From: Cytophagales bacterium Alg240-R148
GTDB lineage: Bacteria > Bacteroidota > Bacteroidia > Cytophagales > Cyclobacteriaceae
DNA length: 64,000 nucleotides
Direction of reading: 5' to 3'
Assembly (NCBI GenBank): GCA_900537185.1
Contig: LS999827.1
Span: 749,001-813,000 of the forward strand
The position numbers and the translations under genes are program-made. Position 1 is the stretch's first letter; each line of letters begins with the position of its first letter. This document shows, one piece after another, positions 34,555 to 47,501 of this stretch. The notes under the pieces were generated by a model. That model was not told the DNA's origin. It saw nothing but the letters and a program-made list of their open reading frames with translations, and made no database searches.

Positions 34555-35937
34555 TTAATTGCTTTCTCTAATTTTTGTTGCCAATTCACTAAATCTTGGG
34601 TCAGATTTAATATTTACGAAGTAATTTTTAGCCGTTCCGAAGCGATCGTTTCGAAACCCTAGTTGGTACAATTGTTCCAAGGTATTAAAGGCCTCTTTTT
34701 TTTGGTTGTTCAAACTATAAGTATCTACTAGCGTTAGCAACGCCCAAAATCGAGTCTGTTCTGTCGCCACCCAAATTTTATTGAGCCGAATGGCCATTTC
34801 ATAATCCTTGGAGGCCTTGTATTTGGGGATTGTAGAGGCACAGTGCAAGCCAATAATATTCAGCAAACGGTGGCCCACATTGGCTTTGTGCCGGTCCGAA
34901 TGTTGGGACAGCTTTTTATATCGTTTTATTTTTAACAACCACCACTCCAAGTCCTTTGCGCTAGAATCAACTTTTTCCAACCTAGATACTGGAATTGTTT
35001 TAAAAGCATCAAAAAATTCGTTTTGGTATTCTCTTTCTTTATCCAATGAACGATTGTAGGCCTTAAAGTCTTTCTTGTATTCCTTTTGAGATTGAGTTTC
35101 GAATAGTAATTCCTGAAAATCGGTTTTTGAATTACCCTCTCCTGACAACTCAATAAGTTCCGTTATTCCATCAACTGCCTCAACCAATTGACCTTTATTT
35201 AACAAAGAATCTACCTGAATTGCCCATTTTCTACAGTCGGTTTGAGCGTCCATGGTTTTACTTCCAAATTGATAAAGAAATGCTTTGTCCATTGATGGAA
35301 GGTCTGGCCATTGGTGATCGTAATTTCCTTTAATATAGAGACTTGGTAAGCCCTTTTTTATTAGATCTTTTTCGACCATAAGCAATTCATGGTAATTCAT
35401 ATCCAGTCTTCCACACAACAAAGCCATTTTAAATTTTGAAGCATTTGTTGGTCTGTAATTGGGAACATTAGGATACCCTGCTCCACATGCAATAACACCA
35501 GTTCTAGAGTTGGTGAGTACTGCGGAAGCAATTGCCGCTCGAGAACCGCCTGAAAATCCTGAAAAATACACTTTATCTTTAGTTATTCCCGTTTTATTAA
35601 GCACATCATTTAATACAGCCTCGCCTGATTCAAAAGCCAATTGCCATGATCCATTTTTACTATTGTTTGAACAGGCCAAAACTACGGAATATTTTTCGGC
35701 TAGACGCTTGTATTTTTTAACTGGAAGTGCACCTCTTGCTGCAGGTTCAAAAATCATAAGCAGTGCATATTCTTTTGCCTCTTGTTTGGAAAATTTGGTG
35801 GGTAAATACAAGGCATAAGTTTGAGCTGGAATATTAAGACATTTTACAGTGTCCAATACGACACCCACGGTGAGTTCTTGTGCGAGTGCATATGAAAAAG
35901 TAATCAACAGAAAAATCGAGCAGGTTAAATGCTTCAT
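34555..35937 (-). CDS. Secreted alpha/beta-hydrolase esterase with helical C-terminus
   Basis: The product is about 460 residues from ATG 35937, giving a signal peptide (MKHLTCSIFLLITFS to ALAQ); an upstream frame to 36045 would run into the susD 3' end. It has a lipase-type nucleophile motif in FSGFSGGSRAA, and a region like poly(3-hydroxybutyrate) depolymerases or feruloyl esterases (VLACSNNSKNGSWQ). The C-terminal 200 residues are helical, possibly TPR-like. It follows susD after a terminator, so it may be linked to the SusCD substrate but is not strictly in that operon. Confidence 0.75.
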   Translation of the reverse strand: MKHLTCSIFLLITFSYALAQELTVGVVLDTVKCLNIPAQTYALYLPTKFSKQEAKEYALLMIFEPAARGALPVKKYKRLAEKYSVVLACSNNSKNGSWQLAFESGEAVLNDVLNKTGITKDKVYFSGFSGGSRAAIASAVLTNSRTGVIACGAGYPNVPNYRPTNASKFKMALLCGRLDMNYHELLMVEKDLIKKGLPSLYIKGNYDHQWPDLPSMDKAFLYQFGSKTMDAQTDCRKWAIQVDSLLNKGQLVEAVDGITELIELSGEGNSKTDFQELLFETQSQKEYKKDFKAYNRSLDKEREYQNEFFDAFKTIPVSRLEKVDSSAKDLEWWLLKIKRYKKLSQHSDRHKANVGHRLLNIIGLHCASTIPKYKASKDYEMAIRLNKIWVATEQTRFWALLTLVDTYSLNNQKKEAFNTLEQLYQLGFRNDRFGTAKNYFVNIKSDPRFSELATKIRESN

Positions 35938-35952
35938 TTTAATAAATATAAG

Positions 35953-35979
35953 AAAAAAAAGGGGCTCTAAGGCCCCTTT
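35953..35979 (-). terminator. Intrinsic terminator of the susCD operon
   Basis: On the minus strand AAAGGGGC and GCCCCTTT pair around a 6-base loop (35958-35979), followed by a run of eight T (35953-35960). It ends the susC-susD message, 11 bp after the susD stop. Confidence 0.88.
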
Positions 35980-35989
35980 AATAATCATA

Positions 35990-37381
35990 TCAATTTTTGT
36001 CCCACCAAAACCGATCTTGAAAATTCGGAGCCTTAATAGGCACATTAGAGTTATTCAAATCAATTTCAGTTTGAGGATAAGGTAACCTTCTAGGTACTTC
36101 ACCATTTGGGTTAAATGCATTGTTTCCTTCCGAATTAGGGATGATGGCCGGAAAACCAGTTCTTCTGTAATCAGTCCATGATTCTAATCCATGTGAATAC
36201 AACGCTATGTACTTTTGGGTCATTATCTGTTCAAGTCTCTCTTGATCATCAGCGAACCCAGCCAAGGCACTTTCAGCAGCAGCATAGGCTGCATCATCTG
36301 CTCCATTTATTTTAGTAATAGAGGCGGATATTGCTTCTTCCAATGCAGCTTCAGCAGCAGGTATATCGCTATTCCCCATCAACTCAATTTCTGCTTCAAT
36401 AAACTTTTGCTCTGCATAGCTCATGAAAATTACAGGTGAGTTAATCGTAGAATAGTAGGTACCCGAATTAAAGTTCTGGTTATACCCAGATGGTTCATCA
36501 CCATCTGCTTCTAACAACTGAGCCCTTCTTGGATCGACCTTATTAATTAACAAATTGAAAAAGTGATCTTCAATTTGAATATTTCCCCCTCTATCTTGAG
36601 AAAATTGGTATTGAGGATTTGCTTCATTAGGGCCAGTTCCAAAGACAAACTGAAAATCGTCTCCATTTCCTGTAAATGCACCGGCCAAAGCACCCTCTGC
36701 ATTGGCATAAGCATTGGCATCAATTTTTGACAAATGTAAATAATACTTAACTTTTAATGCATTGGCTGCCATAATCCAATTGGCTGCGGTTCCACCATAA
36801 ATTTGGTCGTCATTGCCCAATGCTGGTCCAACACCTGGATCTCCATTTAAATCAATAATTGCTTGATCAAGTAAACCTTGAATAGAGGTATAGATGTCCT
36901 CTTGAGAATCGTACTCAGGAAAAAAGTTCTCTTCTAAAGCCCCTAATGCATCACTCAACGGAACATCACCAAACATATCTGCCATGTTTCCAATGCAATG
37001 TGCAATAAGAATAGAAGCCATTGCAGAAGTATATTTTGAATCTTCGGCATCCGCTTTTCTTTTTATGGTCATTAACGGGTTCAAAGTATTAAAATACACT
37101 CTACTCCAAACACCATCCATATCACTTGCTTTTACCAAGTATTTATAATTGTCAAATTGCTGGGCATTGATCCCTTCAAAATGTTGCATGAACAAACCAT
37201 TGATTCTTACAACTTCACCTCCAATGGCAAAAGCCATTCCTGCTTGGGCCGCTGGGACAATTGCCTGTGCTGACACATCAGCAGGCAAAGCAGGGTTTAC
37301 ATTGGTATCACCAAATTCACAAGAAGTAAAAACTGACAACACCATGACTACAGATGCTACTTTTAATTTTATATTTTTCAT
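35990..37381 (-). CDS. SusD/RagB-family substrate-binding lipoprotein
   Basis: The 463-residue surface lipoprotein has a lipobox ending at Cys21 (SVFTSCEFGDTNV). It caps the TonB-dependent channel encoded just upstream (11 bp). It shows the SusD-like TPR regions (for example LLINKVDPRRAQLL and EAEIELMGNSDIPAAEAALEEA) and the C-terminal YPQTEIDLNNSNV element. The nutrient is unknown; no glycoside hydrolase lies next to it, only an esterase and proteases further away, so a peptide or ester substrate is possible. Confidence 0.93.
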   Translation of the reverse strand: MKNIKLKVASVVMVLSVFTSCEFGDTNVNPALPADVSAQAIVPAAQAGMAFAIGGEVVRINGLFMQHFEGINAQQFDNYKYLVKASDMDGVWSRVYFNTLNPLMTIKRKADAEDSKYTSAMASILIAHCIGNMADMFGDVPLSDALGALEENFFPEYDSQEDIYTSIQGLLDQAIIDLNGDPGVGPALGNDDQIYGGTAANWIMAANALKVKYYLHLSKIDANAYANAEGALAGAFTGNGDDFQFVFGTGPNEANPQYQFSQDRGGNIQIEDHFFNLLINKVDPRRAQLLEADGDEPSGYNQNFNSGTYYSTINSPVIFMSYAEQKFIEAEIELMGNSDIPAAEAALEEAISASITKINGADDAAYAAAESALAGFADDQERLEQIMTQKYIALYSHGLESWTDYRRTGFPAIIPNSEGNNAFNPNGEVPRRLPYPQTEIDLNNSNVPIKAPNFQDRFWWDKN

Positions 37382-37392
37382 CTTGTTGTGCT

Positions 37393-40300
37393 TTAAAATG
37401 TGATGTTTAAATTAAAACCATAACTCTTTGTATTTGGATTATTAAAATAATCATAACCAAACACATTGGATGCATCACCTGTAAGGTTTGTCTCAGGATC
37501 AATTCCAGTATAATCAGTTTTCAACCACAAGTTTCTTGCAGAGAACCCTAATTTAACAGAGTTAAATGGAGTTTTTGAAATAATAGATGAAGACAAAGTA
37601 TACCCAACGGATAAATCCCTAAGCCTTACAAAAGAACCGTCCTGAACAGTCAATTCATCCAAATTAACAAAACCATAGTTTTGATAATAATTAGTACCGC
37701 CATCTGTTCCTCCTTTTGTCACTTCTATGTCATTCACCTGTCCAGTAGGGTTTCCTTCTGCATCAGCCAACACGCCAGGAAACACAACCTTTTCGTCTCT
37801 ATCCATAGTTTCTATTCCTACACCAAAATTATTCAAAACACCAGAAGTACCGTTGTACACATCTCCTCCTTGTTTAATATCAAACAAGAATGAAACTTCC
37901 AACCCTTTATAAGACAAGGTGTTTCTGAAACCTAAAGTCCAATCTGGATTTGGGTCTCCTACCTTACCATCTGTTGGGTCTTGTAAAGGCATGCCGTCAT
38001 TTGGATCAATTACCATTCTGCCTTGGTCATCTCTTAAGAATCTTGTCCCGAAGAAGATTCCATATGGTTCTCCAACTTGAATTCTTTGGGTTCCAAATGG
38101 ATCAATAGTAATTACTTCTAACCCTGGTGCAATTGCATTAACTATACTTTTGTAACGGTTAAAATTCAAACCAATATCATAATTAAAGGCGCTTCCTTTG
38201 ATAATATTGGCATTAATAGCAATTTCGATACCTGAATTTTCAATTTCCCCAGTATTAATTGCTCTTTGTTGGAACCCAGAAGCTCTTGATATATCAACTA
38301 AATTGATGATATCTTGAGAAAGTGCATTGTAATAAGTAATGTCTGCGGTTACTCTTCCGTCCCAAAATCTCAAATCTGTTCCTATTTCTAGTGTAGTTGT
38401 AAATTCAGGTTTCAAATTAGGGTTACCCAATTGTCCATCTGGAATAAAAGAGTTGGTTCCTAATGCTGGAAATATTACTCCATTTGGAGTAGTCCACCCA
38501 TCTCTAACTCTTGCCTGTGCATATCCAGTTGAAGTGAAAGCAAAAGGTGCATCTTTACCTACTTTACCATAGGATACCCTTAGTTTACCATATGGCAACA
38601 CTGAACTTCCTAAATCAAACGATTCAGTAAACGACCAACCCAATGCAACAGCTGGGTAGAAAAAAGAGTTATTGGATTCTGGTAATGTAGAAGACCAATC
38701 ATTTCTACCTGTAATATTTAAGAATAAGGCTTCCTTATAAGAGAGTCTAATATCTCCATATAGTCCATAAAGTTTCTTTTGTAAAGGTCGCTCCACTGCG
38801 CTTATCGCACTTGCACTTGCTATATTGAAAAAACCTCTAGAAGCTAACCCTTGCCCATCGACCCTTCTATTACTTACGTTTTTTTCATAAAAGTTCCATC
38901 CTAGCACTGCATTCAAAGAAAAATTATCAGATAGTGATTTGTTTATTGTTCCATAAATATCTGCATTGATATCTTTGCTATTGATATCGTGGTTTACAAC
39001 CTGTCCAGCGGGTAATGTACCCGATCCAATATCATTTCTAAACTTTCTAGAATCGCTATAAGTATCAACACCAAGCCGACCAGTAATCCCAAGCCACTCA
39101 GTAGGGTCATATGTCAATTGAGCAAACCCCAACATTCTATTAACATCATCTGTTAAATAATTCTTATATACCGTCCAATATGGATTGTCATAAATTGCTC
39201 TTGTTCCTAATAAACCTCTGTAGGCCCTTGGGGTACCATCTTCAAATTGATAAGCAGAATTGTCTTTAGATGGATCAACTCCGTTTCTATTATCAAAAGT
39301 TGGAGTGGTTCTCATCAACCCCAACATAACACCTGAAGTATTGGATCCATTTTGAGATCTTTTACCACCTGAATTCATGTAATTGGCAGAGAATGTGGCT
39401 TTCAATTTATTTGAAATTTGAGAACCCACAGTTGCTTTAAAAGATGTTCTTTTAAACTCACTATTAGGAATAATACCAAATTGTGTCATTTGACCTGCTG
39501 ACATATAGTAAGTCGTTTTTTCACTTCCTCCTGAAACACTTAAATAATTATTAAATGTTTTTCCAGTTCTAAAAAATTCACCCTCATTGTCGTAAGCATT
39601 CACATTTCTAGAAGTAGCACTTGGATCACTGCTTAGCACTATCAATCCATTTCTATCCCACTTACTCTCAGTATCAGAATACCTTAAATTCGAAATTTTT
39701 GGCCCCCAACTAAATCCTGTGAAATCTCCATCCATAGGTCCGTGGAAGGTAGGCTCTCCAGTGTCTTCATCCCAATACCCTTGTGCATATGATTTTTGCA
39801 ATTCTGGTAATTTGTTTACTTGATCAAAAGTTACGGAAGTAGAGAAAGTGATTCTTGCTTTCCCATTCGTATTTTTACCCCTTTTAGTTGTTACAATTAT
39901 TGCACCGTTCGATGCTCTAATACCGTACAATGCTGTTGCAGCAGGGCCTTTTAATACCGTCAAGGACTCAATATCATCTGGATTCAAATCAATGGCTCGG
40001 TTGGAATTGTTAACACCTCCTGCACCCAAATCACTAACTGCATCCTCAGGTGAATCGGCCGTTGTAAAGGTATTGTTATCTATTGGAACACCATCTACAA
40101 CAAAAAGAGGAGAATTACTGCCAATAATGGTGTTATTTCCCCTTATTCTAATTTGAGCTGCAGCACCTGCAGTACCACCAGAACTCGTAACCTGAACACC
40201 AGCCGCTTTACCTGCCAACGAAGCCACCATGTTGGTTTCGCCTGACCTCTGAAGTTCATCGGCTTTTACATCCTGTATGGAGTAACCCAAATCGCGTTTA

Positions 40301-40638
40301 TTGGCAGTTAAACCAATAGCTGTAACCACAACTTCTCCCAGTTCAGTAACATCACTAGCTAAAACAATATCAATTATAGTTTGATTCCCAATTTGTCTTT
40401 CTTGGGATGTGTACCCTACAAAGGAAAAAACCAATGTAGCATCTGCCGGCGCCGAAATTGAATAGGCTCCGTTCATGTCAGTAATGGTACCTGTAGAGGT
40501 TCCTTTCACAAGAACATTAACACCGGGCAACGCACTTCCGTCGTCGGCTCCAGTAATAGTCCCTGTAACATTTATGTCCTGGCCATAGGAATAAGCTCCC
40601 ATAGCAAAGACACAAAGAAATAGTAAAATCTTCTTCAT
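37393..40638 (-). CDS. SusC/RagA-family TonB-dependent outer-membrane transporter
   Basis: The product is about 1081 residues from ATG 40638 (signal peptide MKKILLFLCVFAMG to YSYGQ). It has a CarboxypepD-like N-terminal domain (TGTITGADDGSALPGVNVLV), a TonB box region and plug (GEVVVTAIGLTANKRDLGYS, then FVVDGVPIDNN and IESLTVLKGPAATALYG), and a 22-strand barrel ending in Phe (FNLNITF). It imports a ligand together with the SusD protein. The start is preceded by a leader rich in complementary repeats, which suggests control at the RNA or promoter level. Confidence 0.95.
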   Translation of the reverse strand: MKKILLFLCVFAMGAYSYGQDINVTGTITGADDGSALPGVNVLVKGTSTGTITDMNGAYSISAPADATLVFSFVGYTSQERQIGNQTIIDIVLASDVTELGEVVVTAIGLTANKRDLGYSIQDVKADELQRSGETNMVASLAGKAAGVQVTSSGGTAGAAAQIRIRGNNTIIGSNSPLFVVDGVPIDNNTFTTADSPEDAVSDLGAGGVNNSNRAIDLNPDDIESLTVLKGPAATALYGIRASNGAIIVTTKRGKNTNGKARITFSTSVTFDQVNKLPELQKSYAQGYWDEDTGEPTFHGPMDGDFTGFSWGPKISNLRYSDTESKWDRNGLIVLSSDPSATSRNVNAYDNEGEFFRTGKTFNNYLSVSGGSEKTTYYMSAGQMTQFGIIPNSEFKRTSFKATVGSQISNKLKATFSANYMNSGGKRSQNGSNTSGVMLGLMRTTPTFDNRNGVDPSKDNSAYQFEDGTPRAYRGLLGTRAIYDNPYWTVYKNYLTDDVNRMLGFAQLTYDPTEWLGITGRLGVDTYSDSRKFRNDIGSGTLPAGQVVNHDINSKDINADIYGTINKSLSDNFSLNAVLGWNFYEKNVSNRRVDGQGLASRGFFNIASASAISAVERPLQKKLYGLYGDIRLSYKEALFLNITGRNDWSSTLPESNNSFFYPAVALGWSFTESFDLGSSVLPYGKLRVSYGKVGKDAPFAFTSTGYAQARVRDGWTTPNGVIFPALGTNSFIPDGQLGNPNLKPEFTTTLEIGTDLRFWDGRVTADITYYNALSQDIINLVDISRASGFQQRAINTGEIENSGIEIAINANIIKGSAFNYDIGLNFNRYKSIVNAIAPGLEVITIDPFGTQRIQVGEPYGIFFGTRFLRDDQGRMVIDPNDGMPLQDPTDGKVGDPNPDWTLGFRNTLSYKGLEVSFLFDIKQGGDVYNGTSGVLNNFGVGIETMDRDEKVVFPGVLADAEGNPTGQVNDIEVTKGGTDGGTNYYQNYGFVNLDELTVQDGSFVRLRDLSVGYTLSSSIISKTPFNSVKLGFSARNLWLKTDYTGIDPETNLTGDASNVFGYDYFNNPNTKSYGFNLNITF

Positions 40639-40640
40639 GT

Positions 40641-40695
40641 GTTTGAGATTAGGTGAAACATAATGGATACTACCCATACGGGTAACATCTCAAAC
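40641..40695 (-). promoter_or_regulatory. Hairpin leader directly before susC start codon
   Basis: GTTTGAGAT (40641-40649) and ATCTCAAAC (40687-40695) form a perfect 9-bp stem whose end is 2 bases from the susC ATG. Inside it lies TACCC (40671-40675) with GGGTA (40680-40684). The structure would fold in the mRNA next to the start and could control translation. Confidence 0.5.
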
Positions 40696-40724
40696 AACAA
40701 TTTAGAAGTAAGGAGTGTAACAAG

Positions 40725-40863
40725 AACCCCCCAATTTGCGGGGTTGTAGGCAATGGGTATTTCGCCTCAAAAGCTTCGTTTAATACCGGCTTAAGCTGTT
40801 ATGTGATTATTCTTAGTTCAAATTGGGGGATAATAAGCGTTGTTTTTGGGGGATGCACCCCCC
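40725..40863 (-). promoter_or_regulatory. TTGGGGGAT repeats and competing hairpins upstream of susC
   Basis: TTGGGGGAT occurs at 40823-40831 and 40846-40854 (period 23). CAAATTGGGGG (40819-40829) has an exact inverted copy CCCCCAATTTG (40728-40738). AACCCC (40725-40730) also pairs with GGGGTT (40740-40745), and GGGGG (40848-40852) with CCCCC (40858-40862). Some of these pairings exclude each other, as in attenuators or riboswitches; the repeats could equally be operators. Confidence 0.5.
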
Positions 40864-40883: not shown

Positions 40884-41621
40884 CTACGAAATGATTTTCC
40901 TTTTTAACTCGAAGTGCTCCCCTAAGTACACCTTCCTCACTTGTGGGTCATTTGCCAAATCCTCGGCAGAACCCGACTTCAAAAGGCGGCCTTCAAACAT
41001 TAAATAGGCCCTGTCCGTTATGGACAGTGTCTCATTAACATTGTGGTCGGTAATTAAAATTCCAATGTTTTTATTTTTCAGTTTGGCTACAATGGTTTGA
41101 ATTTCTTCGACTGCTATGGGGTCCACTCCGGCAAAGGGCTCATCCAATAGGACAAAATTAGGATCCACAGCCAATGCCCTTGCAATTTCAGTCCTTCTCC
41201 TTTCACCTCCTGATAAGGACATGCCATAGTTTTTTCTAACCTTATGCAAACTAAATTCATCTATTAGGGCCTCCATTTTTTCTCTTTGATCGGCCTTGCT
41301 CAGTTTGGTCATCTGCAATACCGCCAAAATGTTTTCCTCAACCGTTAGCTTTCTAAAAACAGAAGCTTCTTGTGCCAAATACCCAATACCCAACTGCGCT
41401 CGTTTGTACATAGCCAGGCTGGTGATATCTTGGTCGTTTAAGAATATCTTGCCATCATTGGGTTTTATTAAACCAACAATCATATAAAATGAAGTTGTCT
41501 TCCCTGCACCATTGGGTCCTAGAAGTCCAACAATCTCTCCTTGTTTTACCTCAACGGAAACATCATTGACGACAGTTCTACTTTTGTATTTTTTTACAAG
41601 ATTATCGGCCTTAAGAATCAT
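40884..41621 (-). CDS. lptB: LPS export ABC transporter ATP-binding protein
   Basis: The 245-residue cytosolic ATPase drives LPS extraction through LptFG. It has Walker [10 protein letters not shown], the Q-loop, signature [15 protein letters not shown] and Walker [13 protein letters not shown], the last two typical of LptB. Length matches the family. It lies 11 bp downstream of recJ on the same strand, so they may share a message. Other lpt genes are not in the window. Confidence 0.95.
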
Positions 41622-45681: not shown

Positions 45682-46170
45682 ATGAATTTTCTATTTTTAA
45701 CCCCTGGCTTTATGCAACAACAACCTCTCAAAGTAATGCTGGTTGGCAACAACCCTTCCGATTTGGACAAAATCAATAGCAGCTTAATTGATTATAAACC
45801 CATAAAATACGTTTCTAGCATCGCGTTTGACTCCAAACAAGCCATTAAAAATGCAGTGGCAGGAGAATTAAATTTCATTGTACTCGACGACAATCTCGGT
45901 GAAAAAACAATCCACTATATCATTAAAAAATTTTCCAAACTGAAGTCTACTAAAGACCTTCCAATTACCATACTGAAAAACAACAACAGAGAAGGAAGTA
46001 AGATCAACGGGTTGCATGACTATGTCTTGAAGTCTGGAACAGGGCCAGAAAACTTGCATCGCTCCTTTATTAACGCACTAAAGTTGCGCAAAACCCACTT
46101 ATATTTATACAAGTCCTATAAAAAGGGGAAATTAAAATTGAATCAAATGCTAGATGTTTTTTCGATTTAA
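45682..46170 (+). CDS. Degenerate response-regulator receiver protein
   Basis: The product is 162 residues from ATG 45682, or 152 from ATG 45712 (MQQQPLKVMLVGNN). It has a receiver-like pattern: beta1 VMLVGNNPSD without the usual acidic pair, beta3 FIVLDDNLGE with Asp at the phosphoacceptor place, and beta4 LPITILKNN. The acidic pocket is degenerate, and there is no output domain. It may act as a protein-protein switch. The 3' end overlaps the convergent protease gene by 4 bp. Confidence 0.65.
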   Translation: MNFLFLTPGFMQQQPLKVMLVGNNPSDLDKINSSLIDYKPIKYVSSIAFDSKQAIKNAVAGELNFIVLDDNLGEKTIHYIIKKFSKLKSTKDLPITILKNNNREGSKINGLHDYVLKSGTGPENLHRSFINALKLRKTHLYLYKSYKKGKLKLNQMLDVFSI

Positions 46171-47402
46171 ATTTGTCTGGATAAGATCAAGTCCAAGCGT
46201 ATAAGTTTTTGATTTCTAACCACTTCTAGCTTCACTTTTTTGCCCGGTTTTGCATTTAACAGCCCAATTATTTGTTGTAGTTTTAAACTCGAAGTCGAAG
46301 CATTGTTAATTTTGATGATTTGGTCTCCTTTTTGCAGCTGTGCTTCATACGCTGCGCTGCCTGTTCGGACCTCACTGATTACAAATCGATCAAAATTTTT
46401 ACCCTCTACTTTGAGAACAATTCCGCTCAAGTTAAAATCAAAATCTTTTTTAAATTTGCTGTTCTTTTTAAAATATAATTTGCCATGTGGATAGTCAAAA
46501 ATCACATGAAACCTGCTTAAAATTTCACCTCCGATGCTTCCATTCCTAAAGGCTTCTGTGGATTTAATAGAATCTGCCACATAACTTCCTGGGTTGGGAA
46601 AAGATGCGATTACCTCTTCCATCTTGTAGCTGCCCATATTCATGGATTGCACCCGACCTATTTTCCCATATATGTGACCACTGAGACCACGACCTAGATT
46701 GGTGTCTAGGTTTTTCACTGGAATGGCTATGCGGTCATCGGTATCGGGGTCGATAATTAGCCCTGAGCTGGACCCGGTATCGATTAGAAATTTTCCATTG
46801 ATATGGCCGCCGTTATCAAAGTAAACCTTGGAGTAAACATAGGGTTTGGTGTCTTCAATAGACAAAGGCATTTCTTCGTATTTATTCGGCTTTTTATACG
46901 TTTCTGGATCATATAGAACCAGTCGTTGGTTGATGTAATCGAACTTAATTACAAATTTACTGAACAACTCGTATCCTAGTATTCCATGGACATCTGTGCC
47001 TAAGAATTTCTTAAGCTCCATGTAGTCTTTTTGTAACACCAGAACAGAATGCCCTGTGCCTTTTACTCCAGGCAAGTCTATATCTACATTGCTGGCAATG
47101 TAGGCCTCTAAAATCGTTTCTCCACCTGCACCATAGATTACCAATTGTCTTCCATAGTTGAAGTTTAAAATATCCGCATAGGTTTTTTCGGTAATTATTG
47201 TGGTGGGCACCCCGCTATCTAAAACAAACTTAAGAGGCAATTTGGCATCTAAAAGAACAGGAACTACTACTAAATTGCTGTGTACTTTAAAAGGGATAAC
47301 TACCCTCTTGCTTTTATACATGAAATTAAAACCCAAAGGAATTTGCGCCTTTGCGACCAAATTTGAAAACAGAATAAAAAAAGCAAGGAAGTATATTCTC
47401 AT
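46167..47402 (-). CDS. Periplasmic retropepsin-like aspartyl protease with PDZ domain
   Basis: The 411-residue protein has a signal peptide (residues 1-19, ending AKA), two aspartyl-protease half-domains with catalytic Asp in VLDSGVPTT (about residue 62) and LIDTGSSSG (about residue 207), and a C-terminal PDZ domain (about 325-400, with AYEAQLQKGDQIIKINN). A single chain thus holds both catalytic Asp residues. It may process cell-envelope proteins. An inverted repeat (CGTCTTA/TAAGACG) lies 15 bp upstream. Confidence 0.83.
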   Translation of the reverse strand: MRIYFLAFFILFSNLVAKAQIPLGFNFMYKSKRVVIPFKVHSNLVVVPVLLDAKLPLKFVLDSGVPTTIITEKTYADILNFNYGRQLVIYGAGGETILEAYIASNVDIDLPGVKGTGHSVLVLQKDYMELKKFLGTDVHGILGYELFSKFVIKFDYINQRLVLYDPETYKKPNKYEEMPLSIEDTKPYVYSKVYFDNGGHINGKFLIDTGSSSGLIIDPDTDDRIAIPVKNLDTNLGRGLSGHIYGKIGRVQSMNMGSYKMEEVIASFPNPGSYVADSIKSTEAFRNGSIGGEILSRFHVIFDYPHGKLYFKKNSKFKKDFDFNLSGIVLKVEGKNFDRFVISEVRTGSAAYEAQLQKGDQIIKINNASTSSLKLQQIIGLLNAKPGKKVKLEVVRNQKLIRLDLILSRQI

Positions 47403-47446: not shown

Positions 47447-47501
47447 AATCTAAAATAAACAGAATTATTTTAGAAATACTATACCCCAAAATGGGGGATA
47501 A

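Follow-up and report, generated by a model that had tools for sequence, protein, structure and literature searches.

How is a susC gene controlled when the DNA before it is crowded with inverted and direct repeats? The question is raised by positions 40725-40863 of a 64-kb window of Cytophagales bacterium Alg240-R148 (the window, the whole stretch analysed, is positions 749001-813000 of contig C2 of genome G000, 5.3 Mb in all). These positions lie in the 245-bp gap between an ABC transporter ATPase gene and the ATG of a minus-strand susC gene. These bacteria admit nutrients chiefly through SusCD pairs, and for most of the genes no regulator is known. An earlier note took the stretch for an attenuator or riboswitch-like leader, adding in an aside that the repeated word TTGGGGGAT might mark operators. 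The stretch is best read, from its sequence, as DNA operators. It is probably the control DNA of the susCD promoter, with three sites for a NarL/LuxR-type regulator that would activate in trans, because the gene before this susC encodes an ABC ATPase.

The repeats named by the earlier note were all found, with the same letters and coordinates. CCCCCAATTTG (40728-40738) is the exact reverse complement of CAAATTGGGGG (40819-40829), giving an 11-nt inverted repeat with 80 nt between its arms. The window has just two copies of TTGGGGGAT, 23 apart (40823 and 40846); GGGGG-ATGCA-CCCCCC is located at 40848-40863, and an AACCCC/GGGGTT dyad is contained in 40725-40745. The distance given there, 90-225 bases before the susC start, is right with the ATG at 40638; the ATG was taken as 40638-40636, where the protein has the signal-peptide-like start MKKILLFLCVF (judged by eye). 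When the 245 nt preceding the ATG were dinucleotide-shuffled 100 times, one shuffle had an inverted repeat of at least 11 nt with a gap of 20-150. The count of TTGGGGGAT is by itself ordinary, since 1.15 copies are expected window-wide and at least two were present in 31 of 100 shuffles. A repeat element was considered and rejected: the 301-bp region is single-copy in its own genome (the next matches cover 15-41 bases, with E of at least 0.2), and only one of 58 other relatives matched, over 38 bases at an unrelated gene start.

The nature of the repeated word emerges from susC genes that stand behind regulator genes. The genome has 16 genes above the SusC cut-off, several with CCCCC...GGGGG words upstream, and the regions before relatives' SusC orthologues contain, in one orientation or the other, GGGG words that lead into ATAAT-like letters. 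Two susC genes of this genome (L088 and L091) lie directly behind LuxR-type regulator genes, and at L091 the gene order is a histidine kinase with propeller and Y_Y_Y domains, a response regulator with a GerE domain, and susC. A search for the L091-linked regulator in 98 genomes of the family yielded 30 loci, its own included; a susC match follows the regulator by 129-921 bp in 24 of them, and the six without a susC match in the locus were excluded. Regions longer than 450 bp were trimmed to the 450 bp adjoining susC. Expectation maximization on 23 regulator-susC regions, with the window's own genome (L116) excluded from training, gave CATTTTGGGGGATT; on the 22 regions used from the exclusion of L140 (sister of L141) onward it gave TAATTTGGGGGATT, a motif that ends in TTTGGGGGATT. 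The log-likelihood of the 22-region motif was 96.2, compared with a mean of 52.2 (standard deviation 2.6, maximum 57.6) for 24 shuffled sets, and 14 of the 22 regulator-linked regions retained a site at p<0.05 in leave-one-out runs. Computation shows both this motif and its placement between regulator and susC.

The matrix, trained without the window's genome, ranks the gap before the window's susC very high: four of the 11 best matches among the 127,974 positions of the window fall within these 245 bp. Two of them, at 40725-40738 on the minus strand (17.9 bits, rank 2) and 40732-40745 on the plus strand (12.1 bits, rank 11), overlap on opposite strands and form a 21-bp palindrome at 40725-40745 (AACCCCGCAAATTGGGGGGTT on the minus strand), whose inverted half-sites are fit for a dimer. 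This is the putative proximal site O1, with its centre at 40735 and a predicted position of -43. The candidate distal sites, 23 bp apart, are half-sites only, both on the plus strand: O2 (CAAATTGGGGGATA, 40819-40832; 18.7 bits, rank 1) is centred at 40822, predicted -130, and O3 (GTTTTTGGGGGATG, 40842-40855; 14.0 bits, rank 7) at 40845, predicted -153. The three centres lie 97, 184 and 207 bp before the susC ATG, and the Poisson probability of three centres in the gap is 3.2e-6 at the threshold of the eleventh match. The palindromic form is likewise shown by computation, as the same 7-bp offset recurs before the susC genes L094 and L096, and a genome search for AYCCCCCANNNTGGGGGRT allowing one mismatch finds three places (upstream of susC L094, at the window site, and at window 47481-47499), two of which precede susC. 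Of the genome's remaining 15 SusC genes, four (L091, L094, L095 and L096) have a site of at least 15 bits (P 1.5e-4); the best sites of ten others are below 8 bits.

In this reading, the inverted and direct repeats of the gap are all copies of one half-site, present in both orientations. The suggestion that the TTGGGGGAT copies are operators is well supported, and it extends to the local hairpin of the earlier note: the dyad is present, but its reading as an RNA stem is not supported, and it appears instead to be the palindromic form of the operator site. Oppositely oriented operators mimic alternative RNA stems, which is a trap for the interpretation of such regions.

The distance between site and promoter provides further evidence. 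A -7 box (5 or 6 of 6 in TAnnTTTG) was sought at offsets of 12 to 89 from sites of at least 9 bits in 67 regions, leaving out L031 and L039 as doubles of L133 and L135. Pairs with the box 30 or 31 bp past the centre of the site number 9 and 6, from 14 regions, whereas the other offsets average 0.66 pairs and never exceed 5 (P 1.4e-11 for the excess at 30/31); with sites of at least 12 bits, the two offsets hold 8 and 1 pairs versus 0.38. For fresh loci, 194 genomes of the order were searched; 40 of these genomes matched at E 1e-60, and there were 29 new loci in all. Nine of the new loci have a susC match, eight belonging to other families and one (L157) to the same family. Five of the nine fresh regions have a site at p<0.05, and six of the nine contain 7 box pairs at 30/31 versus 0.13 per other offset (P 1.4e-8), with two of the six (L168 and L169) being near twins. 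The fixed offset is thus also shown by computation, and it supplies the fixed distance abutting the promoter (about -42) that characterizes a class II activator.

In Flavobacterium, the extract of PMC9723704 places the -7 box at -12 to -5, which puts the site centre near -43, and also describes a TAnnTTGY variant. The offset rule predicts that the box of the window's susC is TAAATTGT (40697-40704, minus strand), 30 bp after the O1 centre; it fits the variant given in that extract. If the box spans -12 to -5 as described there, transcription would start at about 40692 on the minus strand, with a predicted susC transcript leader of 54 nt, and 40725-40863 would consequently be upstream of the transcript.

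We infer from sequence the family of the regulator that binds here, its activating role, the start position and the nature of the signal. In the proposed mechanism, an outside compound would be sensed by a kinase through its propeller and Y_Y_Y domains, and this kinase would phosphorylate a response regulator of the NarL/LuxR type. As a dimer, the regulator would then occupy TTGGGGGAT at O1, whose centre lies 43 bp ahead of the predicted start, and would aid RNA polymerase at the TAAATTGT promoter, with the upstream half-sites O2 and O3 near -130 and -153 assisting O1. The regulator that anchored the motif search, encoded at G000 C3:697483-698109, has Response_reg (3.9e-25) and GerE (1.9e-18) domains, and the kinase has Reg_prop, Y_Y_Y, HisKA_3 and HATPase_c domains. 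The two proteins are encoded by separate genes, with the kinase gene upstream of the regulator on the same strand and at most 354 bp away at 25 of the 30 family loci and 20 of the 29 order loci. By sequence, the closest solved relatives of the regulator are VraR (1.1e-27), DesR (1e-24), ChrA and NarL (6.1e-24), and 31 matches to it were scored in the window's own genome.

At L111 (1197-2469, G000 C1), two tandem LuxR-type genes precede susC L088. The receiver domain of one falls short of the Pfam cut-off and no receiver is matched in the other; these regulators may act without phosphorylation.

Conservation of the sites among susC orthologues is partial. Among nine orthologues at 57-72% identity, a significant site is present before four, namely L011, L044, L045 and L048. 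A two-site layout persists in two orthologues from Fulvivirga, with centres 105 and 211 bp before the ATG in L048 and 107 and 216 bp in L045, one site of each pair being weak (9-10 bits). The conservation of TTGGGGGAT before susC homologues, which the earlier note had proposed as a check, thus holds for many regulator-linked susC genes and for these four near orthologues but fails for the other five.

Several observations weigh against assigning the sites to a NarL/LuxR-type activator. The five orthologues that lack a significant site are L012, L040, L041, L042 and L043 (85 bp only), and no regulator gene adjoins the window susC. In leave-one-out runs, 8 of the 22 regulator-linked regions lose their site at p<0.05; among the fresh loci, 20 of 29 have no susC match in the locus, and four of the nine regions that do are without a site at p<0.05. 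L088, even though it lies behind two LuxR-type genes, reaches just 9.9 bits, and the L094 site is centred 40 bp before the ATG, too close for the proposed geometry. The window's own box matches TAnnTTTG at 4 of 6 positions. The half-site occurs 29 times genome-wide, as does its reversed control, and the palindrome with at most two mismatches is found at 5 places versus 3 for the control (of the two-mismatch places, one is before a TonB receptor and one, taken as chance, is in a radA-like gene); with counts so like those of the control, it is placement, not number, that is informative. Offset 30 was first noticed in the same data from which its excess was calculated, and it was for this reason retested on the fresh loci of the order. 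Finally, the mean z of the RNA folds of 11 sense regions is below 0 (values +0.16 to -2.77), and weak RNA structure in these regions is possible.

An RNA leader with mutually exclusive stems would account for the 11-nt inverted repeat, which is rarer than chance, and it can draw on a terminator-like match at 40743-40729 of the minus strand (2 found versus 1.1 expected) and on two orthologues without a significant site, L040 and L041, that fold better than shuffles (z -2.63 and -2.77). Nonetheless, the sense RNA of the window folds near the ordinary (z -1.40, 16 of 200 shuffles as good; z -2.04 with 40 shuffles), the antisense RNA has z -0.71 (46 of 200 as good), and an Rfam 15 scan of the window at the gathering threshold found no match. 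In 10 relatives, no inverted repeat with a gap of 20-150 reaches 11 nt, the longest being other words of 6-10 nt. Orientation is no more favourable: a site of at least 12 bits is present in 33 regions, 30 of which have a single centre, one has far centres on the same strand, and far centres on opposite strands are confined to the window and L116, both of the window's own genome. The predicted start near 40692 is, moreover, downstream of 40725, the very position that the earlier note had given as the limit for a transcribed leader. With the long-range pairing not conserved in these regions, for which no covariation model was built, a leader of this kind is very improbable, and the interpretation of the earlier note as a whole is partly supported, through its operators.

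G/C hairpins immediately past the ATPase stop and the weak terminator-like match would suit an intrinsic terminator, or stems for transcript processing, belonging to the ABC-ATPase operon upstream. The T-run is poor, though, and the palindrome also precedes other susC genes with different neighbours, which makes this explanation more doubtful still. Chance G-tracts without function would be compatible with two copies of TTGGGGGAT, a common count in shuffles, but hardly with a rare palindrome and ranks of 1, 2, 7 and 11 under a matrix from other genomes, and can practically be dismissed. A more serious alternative is that the sites are operators, but of a different regulator sharing or overlapping the same word, for example one of AraC type or with another helix-turn-helix (HTH), possibly a repressor. 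The absence of a regulator gene next to the window susC would agree with this, as would the closeness of the L094 site to the ATG and the significant sites of L015, L016, L029 and L046, four among the 30 more distant SusC genes that do not belong to the regulator set. The motif, however, came from regions behind the NarL/LuxR-type family and recurred in fresh loci, and its letters seem to vary with the HTH of the regulator (see below); a different regulator is therefore unlikely.

The link between regulator and site is a hint from sequence. A T replaces the fourth G of the best site for 6 of 9 regulators with ISKET[AS]KTH in the HTH (a segment that we take to be the recognition helix) versus 3 of 24 others (Fisher 0.0047), in a table whose rows are related and some of whose best sites are weak; shared ancestry may explain the link, a further point against the preferred assignment. 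In its broadest form, that assignment implies a susCD regulon across the order, in which susC genes would be activated by many pairs of a propeller/Y_Y_Y kinase and a NarL-type regulator, each acting from a TTGGGGG palindrome of 21 bp with its centre at -43. A small recognition code (ISKET[AS]KTH reading GGGTnAT, most others GGGGGAT) would then make orphan susC genes assignable to regulators from sequence. We consider this extension evenly balanced between right and wrong.

Operator-like palindromes occur before other kinds of genes as well. At window 47480-47500, TATACCCCAAAATGGGGGATA lies 78 nt before a minus-strand gene (46167-47402, protease/PDZ-like by eye), with TTTATTTT, a 4/6 match to the -7 box, at +30 from the palindrome; given this site, the regulon may extend beyond susC. 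At L150 (G000 C7:27450-27468), a two-mismatch palindrome is found about 80 nt before a TonB-receptor gene below the SusC cut-off.

The genes around the sites are all on the minus strand. The susC gene (37393-40638) encodes a protein with TonB-receptor, plug and CarbopepD_reg_2 domains, above the TIGR04056 cut-off, and has a second in-frame ATG candidate at 40677. It is followed by a susD-like gene (35990-37381; SusD-like_2, 1.3e-68), the end of which is overlapped by a gene at 34555-36045 that is hydrolase-like by eye and has no Pfam match at E 0.001. Upstream is the ABC transporter ATPase gene (40884-41621; ABC_tran, 1.4e-35), presumably LptB-like. A perfect 10-nt inverted repeat (40640-40649/40687-40696) runs up to the susC ATG, with a second dyad, TACCCGTATGGGTA, between its arms at 40671-40684; the repeat would be partly inside the predicted short leader and could mask the susC start codon.

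A site of fixed promoter geometry that is readable from sequence connects susC genes to two-component systems, including susC genes with no regulator beside them, and opens their control to direct tests. Among the papers listed from the open-licence literature, no account was found of the motif or of a NarL-type regulator before susC. Bacteroides regulons from comparative genomics, as given in part of PMC3878776, involve AraC-type hybrid two-component systems (HTCS) or SusR with direct repeats, and the word LuxR is absent from the main text of that paper. The likeness is that susCD control was deduced from comparatively found sites and that the HTCS sensors are also two-component kinases. The systems differ in that the site here is palindromic and that kinase and GerE/LuxR-type regulator are separate genes, the kinase having no fused AraC-type HTH.

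Another parallel is the E. coli ogt promoter, which, according to the extract of PMC7419079, NarL activates from 7-2-7 sites at -44.5 and -77.5. Here the half-site TTGGGGGAT is set in a 21-bp palindrome before a Bacteroidetes -7 box, O2 and O3 are centred 87 and 110 bp upstream of O1, and activation is predicted. The two promoters nevertheless appear to share a NarL-family regulator, inverted half-sites for a dimer, and a promoter-abutting site combined with one upstream, so that, on what the extract describes, the susC sites would bear a close functional likeness to NarL at ogt.
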